A DNA stretch of 45,747 bases from Fredinandcohnia onubensis (GTDB lineage Bacteria; Bacillota; Bacilli; Bacillales; Bacillaceae_L): assembly GCF_031181385.1 (NCBI RefSeq), contig NZ_JAPSKV010000020.1, positions 1 to 45,747 on the forward strand. Direction: 5' to 3'. The notes under the pieces were generated by a model. The model had not been told where the DNA came from and did not search any database. It saw nothing but the letters and a program-made list of their open reading frames with translations. Below, piece after piece: positions 3,651-33,421 of the stretch. The first letter of the stretch is position 1; each line of letters begins with the position of its first letter. Position numbers and translations under genes: made by a program.

Positions 3651-4118
3651 ATGGAAGAGATCATCAAACAACAAATTTTGTTTCGTTTCATGACGGTAGA
3701 CGATATTGATGGTGTGATGAAGGTTGAGACTTCAGCATTTACAGTACCTTGGAAGAGGGAAGCATTTTATAATGAGCTTGTTCATAATCAGTTTGCAAAA
3801 TATATTGTCATGACTGATAACGATCAAGTGATTGGATATTGTGGAATGTGGCTTATTTTGGATGAGGCCCATATTACCAATATTGCGGTTCTTCCTGAAT
3901 ACAGAGGGAGAAAGCTTGGGGAAGCTTTACTTATGCAGGCGAAGCTTTTAGCGATGCAGCACCAGGCTGCTACGATGACGCTTGAAGTAAGAGTGTCCAA
4001 TCATGTTGCTCAAAACCTCTATAAAAAATTAGGATTTAAGCCTGGTGGGATCCGAAAAAATTACTATACAGACAATAATGAAGACGCGTTAGTTATGTGG
4101 GTGAATTTAAATGAGTGA
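3651..4118 (+). CDS. rimI: Ribosomal-protein-alanine N-acetyltransferase RimI
   Basis: A GNAT-family acetyltransferase of 155 aa. RimI acetylates the N-terminal alanine of ribosomal protein S18 in E. coli; the substrate in bacilli is inferred. The acetyl-CoA loop is visible as [15 protein letters not shown], preceded by ITNIAV and followed by [19 protein letters not shown], the classic RimI signature. ATG 3651, with AGGGG five bases upstream, is preferred over TTG 3624, which lies inside tsaB. It overlaps tsaD by eight bases. Confidence 0.93.
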
Positions 4119-5127
4119 TAACCAAATAATCATGGGGATTGAAACGAGCTGTGATGAGACGGCTGTTTCAATTATACAAAATGGACGAGAAATTTTATCA
4201 AATGTTGTAGCATCTCAAATCGAAAGTCATAAACGCTTCGGCGGAGTCGTTCCAGAGATCGCATCAAGGCACCATGTTGAAGCTATTACACTGGTAATTG
4301 AAGAAGCTTTAAAGCAGGCTGAAAAGAGTTTTGAGGATATAGATGGTATTGCAGTGACGGAGGGCCCTGGTTTAGTAGGAGCATTGTTAATAGGTGTCAA
4401 CGCTGCAAAAGCGGTAGCTTTTGCCCACGATATTCCTCTATTAGGAGTCCACCATATAGCAGGTCATATTTATGCAAATCGATTGGTTGAGGAGCTGGAG
4501 TTTCCATTGTTGGCATTGGTTGTTTCTGGCGGACATACAGAGCTTGTCTACATGGAGGAGCATGCTTCTTTTAAAGTGATTGGGGAAACAAGGGATGATG
4601 CTGCTGGTGAGGCGTATGACAAGGTGGCTAGAACACTTAACCTTCCATACCCAGGCGGGCCTCACATTGATCGACTTGCACATGAGGGAACAGCAACGAT
4701 CGATTTACCGAGAGCTTGGCTAGAAGAGGATTCTTACGATTTTAGTTTTAGTGGTTTAAAATCAGCTGTTATTAACACACTTCATAATGCAGAGCAACGC
4801 GGGGAAATCATAGATCCGAAGAATCTAGCAGCAAGCTTTCAGGAAAGTGTGATCGATGTCTTAGTGACAAAGACATTGAAGGCAACTAAAGAATATAAGG
4901 TAAAACAGGTGTTACTAGCAGGTGGGGTTGCGGCAAATAAAGGGCTTCGTGCAGCTTTAGAGAATGCATTTTCAGATAAGCCAGAGGTTAAACTCATTAT
5001 TCCTCCACTTTCATTATGTACAGATAACGCTGCAATGATTGCTGCAGTTGGTAGTGTGTTATACGAAAAAGGGAAGCGTTCATCTTACGCATTGAATGCA
5101 AATCCTGGATTAGATATTGAAAGATAG
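4111..5127 (+). CDS. tsaD: tRNA N6-adenosine threonylcarbamoyltransferase TsaD
   Basis: TsaD (Gcp/YdiE) transfers the threonylcarbamoyl group from threonylcarbamoyl-AMP to A37 of tRNA, together with TsaB and TsaE. The 338-aa product has the ASKHA phosphate motif [13 protein letters not shown] at residues 8-20, the metal ligands HHIAGH (H115, H119 region), the SGGHTEL motif and the C-terminal CTDNAAMIA with the metal-binding aspartate. It starts at ATG 4111, overlapping rimI, and an intrinsic terminator follows the stop, so it ends the operon. Confidence 0.97.
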
Positions 5128-11451: not shown

Positions 11452-13100
<1,649 letters not shown>

Positions 13101-13101
<1 letters not shown>

Positions 13102-13195: not shown

Positions 13196-14386
13196 TTAGA
13201 GGCTTCTCATTAGTTGAGCAAACTTTTGAGAAGCTTCTTTTTTTCTGTCCTTTGTGATGTGTAAATAAACCTGTGTTGTCGTTTCGTCTTCTGTATGTCC
13301 TAAACGATCCATAATTTGAAGAAGTTCAACTCCAGCTTCTGCAAGTAAGGAAGTGTGCGTATGTCGTAATGAGTGCGGCGTTAATCGTTTTCCGATAGAA
13401 GGTGTCTTTTTTAATAAGCTTTCCATTCGGTTTTCCACAGTTTTAATAAAATGTGGATAACCGTAATAAGGTGGATTTAATCTGCCGAAAACAAAGTCTT
13501 TATCGTAATACTCCTTACCTACTTGTAATTTAATCTGTTTTTGTTTAATCTGATGTTTTTGTAGGGCTTGAATGACTTCCTCTTCTACATCTATTTTCCG
13601 AATAGATCCTTTTGTTTTTGGGGGGAGGAGTTTATACTTCTTTGTATTGTTAGTTGGATTATAGTACGTTTTAGTAATATTAATTGTGTTTTCTTTAAAG
13701 TCAATATCCTTCCATTTGAGAGCAAGCAGCTCACCAGCTCTAAGACCAGTCCAAGCCAGTGTCGTAAAAATTACATAATCGTCAATTTCACCTTTTTCTT
13801 TTGCTACATCTAAAAATAATTTTAACTCATGTTTTTCTAGGTATTTATCGACTATGCTTTGATTCTCAATATCTTCTACAGTTTGCTTATCTTTCGGAAT
13901 AAATGCATACTCGGTTGGATCTAAGAGTATTAAATCTTGTTCCATAGCCCTTTTGAAAATCATTCTACCTGTTCCATGAATGCCAGATATCGTATTGTGT
14001 GCTAATTTTTCCTTTTTCTTTAAGTCGTTTAGTGCATTTTGATACATTTTTTTGGTTATATCCTTTATTTTGTAAAGACCAAAATATCTGTTTAAGTGAC
14101 CAATCTCGTGATTTCTTACTCTAATCGTACTAATTTTTACATCAGTTTCACTATATACATCTAGCCACTCCTGGGCCATATCTTTAAATATAATATTGTT
14201 ATCCTCAAACGTTCTTGCTCCAGCAAGTCTTTCGAATTCCTTTAATGCGTCTTTAGCTTCTTTTTGTTTTAGAAAACCTTTTTTAACAATTCTTCGTCTT
14301 GAACCACTTTGAGGGTCAATTCCATTTTCTACAACATACATCCACCGCTCGCCTTTTTTTGTTTGGTATTTCTTTATATATGCCAT
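13196..14386 (-). CDS. int: Phage tyrosine integrase
   Basis: A 396-aa site-specific recombinase that inserts and excises the prophage. The N-terminus (1-60, YIKKYQTKKGERWMYVV) is the arm-type DNA-binding domain, then a SAM-like core-binding domain (about 65-165), then the catalytic domain. Catalytic residues seen are R216 (TGLRAGE), H338 and R341 (HSLRH), H364 (LGHTE) and the nucleophile Y374 (TQVYLH). ATG 14386 is preferred because GTG 14395 lies inside the AGGTG ribosome binding site. It is the leftmost prophage gene, facing groEL, next to the presumed att site. Confidence 0.95.
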   Translation of the reverse strand: MAYIKKYQTKKGERWMYVVENGIDPQSGSRRRIVKKGFLKQKEAKDALKEFERLAGARTFEDNNIIFKDMAQEWLDVYSETDVKISTIRVRNHEIGHLNRYFGLYKIKDITKKMYQNALNDLKKKEKLAHNTISGIHGTGRMIFKRAMEQDLILLDPTEYAFIPKDKQTVEDIENQSIVDKYLEKHELKLFLDVAKEKGEIDDYVIFTTLAWTGLRAGELLALKWKDIDFKENTINITKTYYNPTNNTKKYKLLPPKTKGSIRKIDVEEEVIQALQKHQIKQKQIKLQVGKEYYDKDFVFGRLNPPYYGYPHFIKTVENRMESLLKKTPSIGKRLTPHSLRHTHTSLLAEAGVELLQIMDRLGHTEDETTTQVYLHITKDRKKEASQKFAQLMRSL

Positions 14387-14470
14387 TGTTTTCACCTCAT
14401 CCTTTGAGTTTATATATCGTCTATGAAATGATCATTTTCTTGGCCAGTTGCTTCAAGGTACCTTCCCCTC

Positions 14471-28958: not shown

Positions 28959-30475
28959 TAAAATTTCTAGACTTAATTAGACAAAATGGAATTACTCCAG
29001 AACTGATTGCGAAAATCATTGATGAACATAAAAGTGATCATTCGCGAATGAAAAATCTATATGAGCGTTATAAAGTTTCAATTGCAGGTGTGCCCATTCT
29101 TTCTAGGAAACCAATCGAGTACGAAGACTTTGAAACAGGTACTATGAAACGAATCGACAATAAAGTAAACAACACGCTTAATAACTCATTTGATTCAGAT
29201 ATTGTTGATACAAAGGTGGGTTACCTTTTCGGTCATCCTATCACATATGAATTAGACGACAAAAGGGAGCCAGGAACCATTTCTACTGTTAAGCAGCTGA
29301 TTGACGACTTTAACCTTCGTAATCATGTTGAAGATGAAGATAGTGAATGGGGAAAGATGGCCACAATCTGTGGTTATGGTGCCCGATTAGCTTATGTTGA
29401 TAAAGAAGGTAATGAGCGAATAACGAATATAGATCCTTGGGAAGTTGTATTCATTACGTCTGGTAACATTCATGAGCCTGAATATGCTTTGAGGTATTAC
29501 GAAACCTACAACGGGCAAATAAAGGCTGAATTCTATGACGAGAAGTATATATATTTCTTCAGTACAAAGGACAGTTCAGCCTTCACATTAGACGAAAAGA
29601 AGCCTCATTTGTTCGAGGGATGCCCGTTATATGGACTAGCGAACAATAAAGAGTTAATGGGTGATGCTGAAAAGGTTCTTAATCTGATTGACGCTTATGA
29701 TCGTACTTTATCTGATGCCAGTAATGAGATTGAACAGTACCGATTAGCATACCTCATACTGAAAGGTCTTGGGGCTGATGAGGAGACACTCGAAAGGTTA
29801 AAACGAACCGGTATTCTTGAGCTATTTGATGAGAAGGACGATGTTAATTACCTAACAAAGGATATCAATGATGATTTGATTGAACATCACCTTGACCGAT
29901 TAGAAGAAAATATCCTAAGGTTTGCAAAGTCTGTTAACTTTAGTGATGAGGATTTCGCTGGAAATCTTTCAGGAGTCGCCATGAAGTTTAAAATCATGGC
30001 ATTGGAAAATAAGTGTATTACGATGGAACGCAAAATGACAGCTGCATTGAGACACCAGTTTAAGTTGCTATTCTCTACTTGGAATACACGAAATAAGGCA
30101 AAGAAAGATGATTATCTCAAGGTCTGGTTTGGCTTCAAGCGTAACCTTCCAGTAAATATACTTGAAGAATCACAAGTGGCTTCAAATCTACAAGGTCGTG
30201 TAAGTGAGAAAACAAGATTATCTGTACTTTCCTTCGTTGATGATGTTGATTTTGAAATCAATGAAATGGAGAAGGATGCAGATAAAGCATATGCCGGCTT
30301 AATTGGTTCTTTAGATGATGATGATTTAGAACAAGGGAAGAAAAAACAACAAAGTAGCAAATCTGACTCTGAATCCATTTGTAAAGTGTGTGGAGGTAGT
30401 GGAAAAGTTACCAGTGATAAGACAGGTGGTTTGATTCAATGTAAAACCTGCGGTGGATCCGGTGTGATTGGATAA
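28955..30475 (+). CDS. Portal protein, SPP1 gp6 family, with C-terminal zinc motif
   Basis: A 506-aa protein that forms the dodecameric ring through which DNA enters the head. The phage portal motif region [16 protein letters not shown], later [20 protein letters not shown] and the [15 protein letters not shown] segment fit the SPP1-type portal. Unusually, the last 33 residues carry CKVC (476-479) and CKTC (496-499), each followed by GGSG, a DnaJ-like CxxCxGxG zinc motif pair. Coupled to terL (four-base overlap) and to the next gene (one base). Confidence 0.93.
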
Positions 30476-31494
30476 TGACTTTAAACCAAAATGAGATTGA
30501 TAAGTATTTAGATGAGTTGATCACTAAGGCTGAGAGAGAAATAGATAAAATGTTTGCTAGACGTTTAAAAGAACTTCGTAAACAGCTTTCTCAAATTTAT
30601 TTAAAATATGCCGATGGTAAAGAACTTACTTACACTGATCTAAATAAATACAATCGCATGAAAAAGGAAATGAAGTTAATTGCCGAAGCCATTAACGAGG
30701 ATTTTCAGGAGCTTTTAAAAATTATTCAGGAGCTTATGGAAAACCAATACATTGAAAACTATCTGAGGTCAGCATACTTATATGAGTTTGAGGCACAAAC
30801 GACAATGGGATTTGGAATGCCCGCAATAAAAGCTGTGCAAATAGCCATTTTGAACAAAATACCTCAGTTAACCTTGCCAGTTGTTTTAGAAGGCCAGAGA
30901 AACGACTTAGTAAGGCAAATATCAATGGATATCTCACAAGGTTTGTTAGCTGGCGAAGGATATACAGATATTGCTGAGCGTATTCAAAAGAGTGTTGGTT
31001 TTGGTGCTGTTAAAGCAAGGCGAGTAGCAAGAACTGAAGGTCATAGAGCACAGGTTCAAGGTAGATTGGATAGTGCTGCCAAAGCTTCTAAACATGCAGA
31101 ACTAAAAAAGATGTGGGATGGAACGCTCGATTCCAGAACAAGAAAAGCTCATAGGAAACTAGATGGCACGGTTGTAGATTATGACGGTGTTTTTGTTTCG
31201 ATTGCTGGTGGTAAAGGTGTTGCTCCTGGACTGATGTTTTCGGCAGCTGATGACATTAATTGTAGGTGCTCAGTATTGTTCTTAGTGAATGGCAGAAAGC
31301 CGGAAGTAAGACGTGCTAGAAACGAAGAGGACCCTAATTACCAACGTAAACTTGCTCATAGGATGGATAAGTATATGGAGGATGGATTAACCGCTAAACA
31401 AGCCGAGAAAAAGGCCAAGAAAGAGGTTAGACCGCCTAGTCTTGTTATTCCATATACGACTTATGAAGGTTGGTACGAGAAACGAATTGCTTAA
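30475..31494 (+). CDS. Minor head / morphogenesis protein (SPP1 gp7, Mu F-like)
   Basis: A 339-aa protein. The C-terminal region (VARTEGHRAQVQGRLDSA, then KMWDGTLDSRTRKAHRKLDG and the DINCRCSVLF motif) is the Phage_Mu_F domain found in minor head proteins that travel with the portal. N-terminal 100 residues are helical and basic. It directly follows the portal, as in SPP1 genes 6-7. Confidence 0.9.
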   Translation: MTLNQNEIDKYLDELITKAEREIDKMFARRLKELRKQLSQIYLKYADGKELTYTDLNKYNRMKKEMKLIAEAINEDFQELLKIIQELMENQYIENYLRSAYLYEFEAQTTMGFGMPAIKAVQIAILNKIPQLTLPVVLEGQRNDLVRQISMDISQGLLAGEGYTDIAERIQKSVGFGAVKARRVARTEGHRAQVQGRLDSAAKASKHAELKKMWDGTLDSRTRKAHRKLDGTVVDYDGVFVSIAGGKGVAPGLMFSAADDINCRCSVLFLVNGRKPEVRRARNEEDPNYQRKLAHRMDKYMEDGLTAKQAEKKAKKEVRPPSLVIPYTTYEGWYEKRIA

Positions 31495-31505
31495 GGAGGG
31501 ACAAC

Positions 31506-31688
31506 GTGACAAAAGTTGCAGTAACAGTAGGTAATGATGGATACATGAAAATTGAAGCGAAAGGACATACAGAAAGCATTGTATGTGCATCTGTTTCGAC
31601 TCTTCTGCAGTCATCAGTGAGATTTCTGCAAGAGCTCTCAGAACAGTATCCAGAAGCATTGACAGTGAAAATTAAGGAACAAGAATAA
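31506..31688 (+). CDS. Prp-like cysteine protease, phage version
   Basis: A 60-aa protein from GTG 31506 with AAGGAGGG five bases upstream. AKGHTESIVCASVSTLLQSS followed by VRFLQELSE matches the Prp (YsxB) family, whose catalytic His and Cys sit in a GH...IVCA context. Prp cleaves the N-terminus of ribosomal protein L27 and, in staphylococcal phage 80alpha, capsid and scaffold proteins. Here the His-Cys distance is only six residues (H21, C27), shorter than the usual twelve. The neighbours, scaffold and capsid, share a possible cleavage motif. Confidence 0.72.
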   Translation: MTKVAVTVGNDGYMKIEAKGHTESIVCASVSTLLQSSVRFLQELSEQYPEALTVKIKEQE

Positions 31689-31692
31689 TTAG

Positions 31693-31722
31693 CGCCTAGC
31701 ATGAGAGTTGTTAGGCGTTTTG
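31693..31722 (+). terminator. Hairpin between protease and scaffold genes
   Basis: CGCCTA / TAGGCG with a 13-nt loop followed by TTTTGTT. It is a weak or partial terminator and may set the protein ratio between the packaging genes and the abundant scaffold and capsid genes. Confidence 0.6.
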
Positions 31723-31782
31723 TTATACTCAAAAACTTGAACATTAAGGCTCGTACTTGGTGGTCAATAGGAGGAATATAAG

Positions 31783-32421
31783 TTGAAACCATTTAAGAAA
31801 GTTAATTTAATACCGGTCAACATCAAGCAATTTGACGGAACAATCAACCTAGAAGCAGTCAAAAAATTTCTTACTGACAACAAAGACAATACAGAAGTGA
31901 AAGCGTACCTTGGAGAACTTTCAGCGCCCACAGTAGAGGGAGTTAAAGGGTTCCTTGATACAGAAGAAGGTAAAAAGTTATTACAACCAAGGCTAGATAG
32001 CTACTTCACCAAGGGACTTGAAACTTGGAAGCAAAATAACCTCGAAAAGTTAATCACAGAAGAGGTAAATAAACGTAATCCAAGTAAAACACCTGAACAA
32101 CTTGAATTAGAAAAGCTTCGAAAGGAAATTGAAGATGAGCGTAAAGCACGTAATCGTGAGGCATTGGTCAATAAAGCATTAAAGGTAGCGAAGGACAAGA
32201 ATCTACCAGATGGCATTATTGACTTCTTTATTGCTGAGGATGAAGACGGCACAACAGCTAACCTTACAAAACTTGAAGAAGAGTATACAAAAGCTGTACA
32301 AGCCGCAGTTGATGCAAAGTTTAAAGAAAATGGCCGTGACATTAATCAAGGTGGCGGTGGTTCTCTTGGAGGAGCAATAGATATTGGATCTCTTGCTAGT
32401 GAAGTAAATATTCGAAAATAA
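31783..32421 (+). CDS. Capsid scaffolding protein (DUF4355-like)
   Basis: A 212-aa protein, helical and rich in Glu/Lys, with a long central coiled coil (EQLELEKLRKEIEDERKARN) and a Gly-rich C-terminus, immediately before the capsid gene: the standard scaffold position and make-up. Residues 12-18 are VNIKQFD, the same seven residues found near the capsid N-terminus, suggesting a common processing site. Start TTG 31783 with AGGAGG about eight bases upstream. Confidence 0.85.
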   Translation: MKPFKKVNLIPVNIKQFDGTINLEAVKKFLTDNKDNTEVKAYLGELSAPTVEGVKGFLDTEEGKKLLQPRLDSYFTKGLETWKQNNLEKLITEEVNKRNPSKTPEQLELEKLRKEIEDERKARNREALVNKALKVAKDKNLPDGIIDFFIAEDEDGTTANLTKLEEEYTKAVQAAVDAKFKENGRDINQGGGGSLGGAIDIGSLASEVNIRK

Positions 32422-32436
32422 AGGAGAAGATGACAA

Positions 32437-33393
32437 GTGAAAAAATTAGAGTTACTTAAAGTTAATATCAAGCAGTTCGACTTCAACCCAGCGAACGTTA
32501 TGCTGCAGGATGCAGTAACAGGAGCAGTACCTAAGGAAGAAGGTACTCTTGTATTAAAAGAGTTTATGACTCAATCAGCTGTTACAAAACTTGCTAAATA
32601 TGAGGAAATGACAAAACCAGAAAAAGAGTTCACATACCTAGCTACCGGACCTGGAGCTTATTGGGTGGGTGAAGGTCAGAAAATCCAAACTTCTAAGGCT
32701 ACTTGGTTAACAGCTAAGATGGTATCAAAGAAACTAGGTGTAATCCTACCTGTATCAAAGGAATTTTTACGTTACTCTGTTAAGGATTTCTTTACTCAAA
32801 TGCGAGCTCCGATTTCCGAAGCTTTCGCAATTGCCTTTGACCAAGCTGCTTTATACGGAACAAGCTCTCCATTCGGTTCGGGTGTATCTGTGTTCGAAAA
32901 AGCTAATGCATCAGGTAATGTATTAGCCTATAACTCTATCGGTAATCTTTACGATGAATTAAATGGCGTGATGGCTTTCGTAGAAGATGCAGATAAAGAT
33001 GTTGATGGATTTACAACTACTCGTCGTTTCCGTCAAAAATTACGTGGAGCAAAGGATACTAACGGTCTTCCAATCTTTAACGATGCAACTGGTGGAGCAA
33101 CACAGCAGGCTTTAGGGTTACCTATCGGTTATGTTGATTCTAAATCTTGGGATTACACAAAAGCCCTGTTGTTAGCAGCTGATTGGGATATGACTCGTTA
33201 TGGCATCCCTCAAGGAATGGAATATAAGATTTCTGAGGATGCAACATTGACGACTGTACTTGGTGAAGATGGACAACCTATCAATCTATTCGAACGTGAC
33301 ATGTTCGCTTTACGTGTGACTCAACAAGTCGGATTCATGACATTATCAGATGATGCATTTGCTGCTTTAACACCTGAAGTAGTAGCACCTTAA
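32437..33393 (+). CDS. Major capsid protein, HK97 fold
   Basis: A 318-aa head shell protein. Blocks such as YLATGPGAYWVGEGQKIQTS, then SKKLGVILPVSKEFLRYS and APISEAFAIAFDQAALYGTS are typical of HK97-fold capsid proteins of Gram-positive phages. The first residues MKKLELLKVNIKQFDFNP resemble the N-terminal arm of L27 and share VNIKQFD with the scaffold. Start GTG 32437 with AAGGAG upstream. A terminator follows. Confidence 0.93.
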   Translation: MKKLELLKVNIKQFDFNPANVMLQDAVTGAVPKEEGTLVLKEFMTQSAVTKLAKYEEMTKPEKEFTYLATGPGAYWVGEGQKIQTSKATWLTAKMVSKKLGVILPVSKEFLRYSVKDFFTQMRAPISEAFAIAFDQAALYGTSSPFGSGVSVFEKANASGNVLAYNSIGNLYDELNGVMAFVEDADKDVDGFTTTRRFRQKLRGAKDTNGLPIFNDATGGATQQALGLPIGYVDSKSWDYTKALLLAADWDMTRYGIPQGMEYKISEDATLTTVLGEDGQPINLFERDMFALRVTQQVGFMTLSDDAFAALTPEVVAP

Positions 33394-33394
33394 T

Positions 33395-33421
33395 AAAAAA
33401 GGCGGCTTTTTAGCCGTCTTT
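33395..33421 (+). terminator. Terminator after the capsid gene
   Basis: GGCGGCT / AGCCGTC with a 4-nt loop (one G-U), flanked by A and T runs. Probably partial, reducing connector and tail expression relative to capsid. Confidence 0.8.

Follow-up and report, generated by a model that had tools for sequence, protein, structure and literature searches.

Does a prophage that marks its capsid proteins for the bacterial protease Prp depend on the Prp of its host, or can it bring an enzyme of its own? The question is raised by a head module in Fredinandcohnia onubensis (assembly GCF_031181385.1), on a stretch of 45,747 nucleotides (NZ_JAPSKV010000020.1) that was analysed in full and is here called the window; it is one whole contig of the 4.26 Mb, 39-contig source genome. 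In this module the head scaffolding protein and the major capsid protein (MCP) share the peptide VNIKQFD near their N-termini, and the Prp-like gene that the original prediction from this sequence had placed just upstream of the two is indeed there, encoding a 60-amino acid (aa) homologue of family PF04327. We hold with good confidence that the prophage carries a mobile capsid-processing cassette, whose two parts are this half-length Prp (mini-Prp) and a tag at the N-terminus of scaffold and MCP alike.

The precedent is phage 80alpha, in which, according to the available text of two papers, host Prp cuts both capsid protein and scaffold at NLQFF'A or NLQHF'A (the apostrophe marks the cut), with no phage protease involved (PMC9405229, PMC5744158). 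As far as that text goes, Prp-dependent capsid processing has so far meant a phage borrowing a host enzyme, for an unclear purpose. As in the window, the same N-terminal motif stands on scaffold and MCP of 80alpha and in the same position, and the Pfam family of the scaffold is named after Gp46.

The shared peptide and the half-length Prp

The peptide is identical in the two window proteins, as had been predicted, and the underlying 21-base segments differ at bases 3, 6, 15 and 18, all of them silent third positions. The silent differences agree with the prediction's further claim that the peptide is under selection, but two such short stretches are by themselves weak evidence of it. When the first 40 residues behind each start were compared without gaps, none of 5000 shuffles came up to the similarity of scaffold and MCP, and no other of the 210 pairs that can be formed from 21 window genes scored as high (52, against 33 for the runner-up). 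The pattern [NDK][ILV]xQF occurs four more times in the six frames of the window, never at an N-terminus: three of these matches fall within longer genes and the fourth in a different frame. In many loci scaffold and MCP have unlike tags (VDIKQFD and VNIHQFD in L006, for instance), and for this reason gene conversion or recent duplication was judged an unlikely origin.

The likeness of the peptide to the L27 site of Prp, also part of the original prediction, holds at P6, P4 and P1, which fit a Prp substrate (P1 and P1' flank the cut), but the peptide is not the L27 site itself. Where the host site reads MLxx(D/N)LQ(F/L)F'A, the window tag has I at P4, K at P3, Q at P2 and D at P1'. The departures at P3, P2 and P1' are one of two features that go beyond that prediction, the other being that the protease is only about half of a Prp.

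Host Prp (YsxB; peptidase family C108; SaPrp structures 4PEO, 7KLD and 7JVS) is a protein of about 105 aa with a bbabbab fold, encoded between L21 and L27, which needs Asp31 and contacts a Gln at P3 of its substrate. The mini-Prp has the same GH...CA..S signature, and the alignment of its Gly, His, Cys and Ser also holds in a mixed alignment with full-length Prps; Cys27, predicted to be catalytic, aligns with the catalytic cysteine and would be expected to act as such. Its match exceeds the PF04327 cut-off of 27 but covers only positions 2-57 of the 90 in the model, and falls far under the cut-offs of the NCBIfam Prp models. Six residues of loop L2 are absent, and Ser stands where SaPrp has Asp31; across 17 mini-Prp rows this position is Ser, Arg or Pro. 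The modelled protein consists of two strands, a single helix and a tail, and the middle of Prp is absent from the alignment. Because neither the bbabbab fold nor the Asp31 loop is present, we class the mini-Prp as a half-length variant, with a predicted half-fold, rather than as a canonical Prp.

Structure models of this protein and of a second mini-Prp lineage, described below, reached a best predicted local distance difference test (pLDDT) score of 91.3 each, and their top structural matches are Prps. The median pN/pS ratio (nonsynonymous over synonymous differences) is 0.24 in the Bacillus group to which the window belongs (66 pairs, 12 genes) and 0.32 in the second lineage (136 pairs, 17 genes). 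A pseudogene or frameshifted Prp was considered and rejected: the short form is kept throughout the 17-row alignment, pN/pS is low and a terminator-like hairpin lies 3' of the gene. Within the family, one of 17 genomes has a mini-Prp, and within the order 3 of 396 do; both counts include the source genome.

Co-occurrence of tag and mini-Prp

All 17 distinct Bacillus-group head modules with a mini-Prp, the window among them, carry the tag on both scaffold and MCP, by a pattern that, like the other tag patterns used here, was written after the data had been seen and that fixes N, D or K at P5, I or L at P4 and F at P1. The modules came from searches of viral and genome contigs, plus the window, and a further search gave only one repeat and one cut contig; the group is named from record titles (Bacillus, Cytobacillus, Lysinibacillus and Psychrobacillus), with L014 titled Chryseobacterium. 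Over the 34 tags, P6 is V, L, I or A, P5 is N in 32, P4 is I or L, P3 is K in 25 and Q in 2, P2 is Q in 32 and P1 is F; P1' is D in 21, E in 6, A in 3 and other residues in the rest. Left out of the counts were L018 and L019 (Prps between L21- and L27-like genes of Brevinematales), L020 (a chance-like match), L216 (which ends before the scaffold) and L032, a viral contig whose short Prp (3989-4171; PF04327 27.5 bits) is a divergent 60-aa mini-Prp outside any recognisable head module.

For the converse, loci were chosen irrespective of mini-Prp, by scaffold homology (80 of 146 matches kept), by MCP homology, by PF14265 in the 396 genomes (45 with a match; loci obtained for 30 of 48 matches) and from a second MCP family. 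The scaffold and MCP search seeds included the tag peptides, so that tagged loci without a mini-Prp should have been easy to find. Of the distinct rows obtained through scaffold or MCP homology, the 15 with mini-Prp (window included) all have the tag on both proteins, whereas without mini-Prp a VNIKQF-type tag occurs on none of 83 scaffolds (69 tagless, 14 host-type) and none of 64 MCPs (51 tagless, 13 host-type). The tagless homologues start about where the tag would end (e.g., MNLEEIKKYL). Many of these rows are close relatives and the fair count is that at cluster level, for which 138 of 177 loci, those with a near-complete MCP of the PF05065-type family, were clustered at 95% to 42: the MCP tag is present in 13 of 13 clusters with mini-Prp and in 0 of 29 without (20 tagless, 9 host-type). 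The best MCP tree has 7 changes in the mini-Prp state, of which well supported branches force 4, and the tag followed the gene. Independent pairs on supported branches have the tag going with mini-Prp in 4 of 4 cases (p 0.125); four pairs alone are below significance, and the strength of the case lies in the whole pattern.

The second MCP family, phrog_544, offers a comparison at a single place in the protein. Its two loci with a mini-Prp have the tags NIKQFD/NIKQFA and NIKLFA/NIQQFA, whereas all nine relatives without one (L206-L214, partly near-identical, with L208 and L210 sharing their N-termini) bear a site of the host type (NLQFFA, for example) on one or both of the two proteins. The same place thus holds the host site where mini-Prp is absent and an altered site where it is present. 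In L206 a third protein, encoded by a 107-aa open reading frame 5' of the scaffold (1864-2184), has a host-Prp-like tag: its first residues are LKMKLDIQHFAEP.

Full-length Prps also occur in phage head modules. Those of L219, L220, L221, L145, L146 and L297 are accompanied by NLQxFA-like tags of the host type (on scaffold, MCP or both) and, where annotated, are called peptidase, ribosomal protein or hypothetical protein; database full-length Prps of phages BL3, phiFL3A and Oenococcus phages are likewise named 'peptidase'. BL3 gp6 (Brochothrix), phiFL3A gp45 (Enterococcus) and the Prp of TMW 1.1447 P1 (Latilactobacillus) resemble the window in combining a head-module Prp gene with tags on scaffold and MCP, and BL3 gp6 and the L145 protein fall, like mini-Prp, in phrog_4478. 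Unlike mini-Prp, the three are of full length, keep the GxDI[VI]CA loop, accompany host-type tags with Gln at P3 and have genes that overlap or follow the portal gene.

A second lineage of mini-Prp is represented by gene 6 of Streptomyces phage Kromp, which encodes 62 aa between the scaffold and MCP genes. The Kromp tags, WFQLTRHD and WFRLDRHD (shared form FxLxRH'D), again form a pair reached in none of 5000 shuffles and the best of 55 gene pairs. Among 75 Kromp-related viral contigs, with hosts identified for Kromp only, a search of 78 residues around the domain start found the tag in both genes in 62 of 75 and on the MCP in 71 of 71 where an MCP was found. It gave no scaffold tag in three contigs (L275, L276 and L289), although FNLHRHD is listed elsewhere for L276, and no scaffold match for L294, for which FRLDRHD is listed. 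Gly, His and Cys are invariant in 46 of 46 Kromp-type mini-Prps, and P3 is Gln in 0 of 151 tags (0 of 137 without seven refetched contigs). Two MCP N-termini, in L225 and L226, have apparent tandem tags (WFRLDRHD ... WFDLGRHD). Kromp gene 4 (L218:2160-3176), annotated as a capsid maturation protease and matching phrog_1522 'head maturation protease', is another processing candidate in that phage.

The genes, the tags, their co-occurrence and the active-site alignment are the directly established parts of the cassette.

Matching of enzyme and tag, and competing explanations

Host Prp cuts N-terminal tags behind Phe, and in the available description of SaPrp the substrate leucines at P6 and P4 lie at the dimer interface, the P1 Phe stacks on His22, and the P3 Gln bonds to Gly29 and to Asp31, an essential residue, in a mobile loop (PMC9405229); the numbering of L4 and L6 of that paper as P6 and P4 is our own. 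Mini-Prp tags retain hydrophobic residues at P6 and P4 and an aromatic residue or His at P1, matching the SaPrp contacts. The P3 Gln is gone from 32 of 34 Bacillus-group tags and from all Kromp-type tags, and Asp31 is gone from the mini-Prps, in which the equivalent of Ser38 is nearly always kept. Asp31 and P3 Gln are both kept in seven full-length cases (Prp and L27 of the source genome, L145, L146, BL3, phiFL3A, TMW 1.1447 P1 and L297). This joint loss is the best sign that mini-Prp and tag belong together, and it suggests that host Prp would cut the phage tag poorly and that mini-Prp would spare L27.

We therefore envisage the following. After translation, mini-Prp would bind the tag of scaffold and MCP, whose consensus is [VLI]-N-I-K-Q-F'D/E/A, through the hydrophobic P6 and P4 residues and the P1 Phe, and Cys27 and His21 would cut behind that Phe, giving N-termini that resemble those of homologues naturally without a tag. 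Because the sheet is only half of that of Prp, two copies of the enzyme probably join in a homodimer to restore the complete Prp fold. Since the tag has drifted from the host L27 site alongside the shortening of the active-site loop and the loss of Asp31, the system is expected to be insulated, in part at least, from host Prp and L27. Cleavage of the tag, its exact position, the homodimer and the insulation are thus what we infer from the cassette. The original idea of a self-contained unit of phage-owned protease and tag gains from the strict co-occurrence of the two, from the second lineage and from the match at P6, P4 and P1.

There are other possible scenarios. In one, mini-Prp binds the tag as a chaperone or assembly adaptor and its active site, though retained, does not cut, the tag serving to coordinate the folding of scaffold and capsid. 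In the available text on 80alpha, tag cleavage is dispensable and phages with an uncleavable tag are viable, yet the scaffold must start with an intact tag and gives no capsids when tagless, and a common chaperone is proposed (PMC5744158). The lack of Asp31 and of half the fold fits such a role as well, and weighs against the proteolytic cassette that we favour. A pure binder needs no Cys, however, and all 17 Bacillus-group mini-Prps have the Gly, His, Cys and Ser, just as all of the Kromp type have the Gly, His and Cys; moreover, a cut at F'D would leave N-termini near those of the tagless homologues. We consider this scenario unlikely.

We judge it very improbable that the tag is cut by host Prp, on the model of 80alpha, with mini-Prp as a decoy, inhibitor or regulator of that enzyme. 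The host genome does have a full-length Prp beside a long L27 with the site LDLQFF'A, and some homologous phages without mini-Prp carry host-type sites; but tags that accompany mini-Prp are unlike the host site at P3, P2 or P1', and the Kromp host belongs to the Actinomycetota, a phylum that the available text of PMC9405229 does not list among those bearing Prp and whose one control genome here, Corynebacterium glutamicum, gave no PF04327 match (nor did the Escherichia coli control genome). Scarcely credible is a structural or targeting signal such as a docking peptide, inherited with the module and linked to mini-Prp by hitch-hiking of neighbours: the three genes are adjacent and could travel together, but many scaffold and MCP homologues come without mini-Prp and have no VNIKQF-type tag either, the tag follows the seven state changes on the MCP tree, and the two lineages have different tags.

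A wider form of the cassette proposal seems to us evenly balanced: that half-size Prps of about 60 aa are widespread phage-borne, tag-specific capsid proteases, possibly among the smallest known, acting as homodimers with two symmetric active sites, and that their two lineages (Bacillus-group with VNIKQF'D and Kromp-type actinobacterial with FxLxRH'D) co-diversified with their own tags and freed capsid processing from host Prp even in Prp-less hosts. Many phages appear to carry such a minimal, dedicated Prp with its own tag, and matched protease-tag pairs would form a natural set for studying the purpose of the tag, the site choice of Prp and the minimum size of a sequence-specific protease.

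Related systems and gene context

The novelty that we claim is not phage carriage of Prp, but a half-size Prp with a co-varying tag of its own as a self-contained capsid-processing unit. We recognised no description of a phage-encoded Prp with scaffold and capsid tags in the available text of the literature searched, which did not include the original Prp paper, and we do not claim that none is in print. The accessible part of a report on the predicted protease ORF22 of a Shewanella phage discusses Prp and mentions no capsid tags (PMC10846135). Prp of Thermotoga maritima (1S12) resembles mini-Prp in its short His-Cys loop and in a C-terminal helix and tail that match the mini-Prp tail, but is a full-length host protein, from a species said in the available text to lack a long L27 (PMC9405229). 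The same source describes the other clan CR enzyme, the capsid-processing peptidase of phage Cp-1, as a cysteine protease removing about 40 N-terminal residues of the capsid protein; we liken it to mini-Prp by description only.

The window has the gene order of a prophage head module: terminases, portal, minor head protein, mini-Prp, scaffold and MCP, followed by tail genes (Table 1).

Table 1. Features of the mini-Prp, scaffold and MCP region, in window coordinates
Feature	Position	Strand	Basis and remarks
Minor head / head-morphogenesis protein	30475..31494	+	phrog_115 5.9e-51; also phrog_595 'head maturation protease' 8.6e-34; directly 5' of mini-Prp
Ribosome-binding site AAGGAGG of mini-Prp gene	31493..31499	+	sequence; gene start GTG
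Mini-Prp, 60 aa, half-length Prp homologue, proposed tag-specific cysteine protease	31506..31688	+	PF04327 28.9 bits; phrog_4478 'peptidase' 4e-05; kept in 17-row alignment
Gly20-His21, aligned with SaPrp Gly21-His22	31563..31568	+	alignments; invariant 17/17
Cys27, aligned with catalytic Cys34 of SaPrp	31584..31586	+	alignments; invariant 17/17
Ser31, aligned with SaPrp Ser38, same Cys+4 spacing	31596..31598	+	alignments; invariant 17/17
Terminator-like hairpin between mini-Prp and scaffold genes	31691..31719	+	hairpin scan
Scaffold, head scaffolding protein	31783..32421	+	PF14265 ('Capsid assembly scaffolding protein Gp46'), phrog_172; TTG start
Scaffold tag VNIKQF'D, residues 12-18	31816..31836	+	predicted cut after F17, between 31833 and 31834
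Major capsid protein (MCP), HK97 family	32437..33393	+	PF05065, phrog_10; GTG start
MCP tag VNIKQF'D, residues 9-15	32461..32481	+	predicted cut after F14, between 32478 and 32479

The hairpin between the mini-Prp and scaffold genes is covered by an RNA fold of 31686-31785 with a z of -2.84; the whole stretch has 5 terminator-like hairpins, compared with 2.4 in shuffles. Another such hairpin lies directly 3' of the MCP gene (33398-33421). Finally, an integrase gene (phrog_1; 13196-14395, minus strand) adjoins a groEL gene (phrog_5725; 11473-13101, plus strand), and the prophage may have integrated beside groEL.
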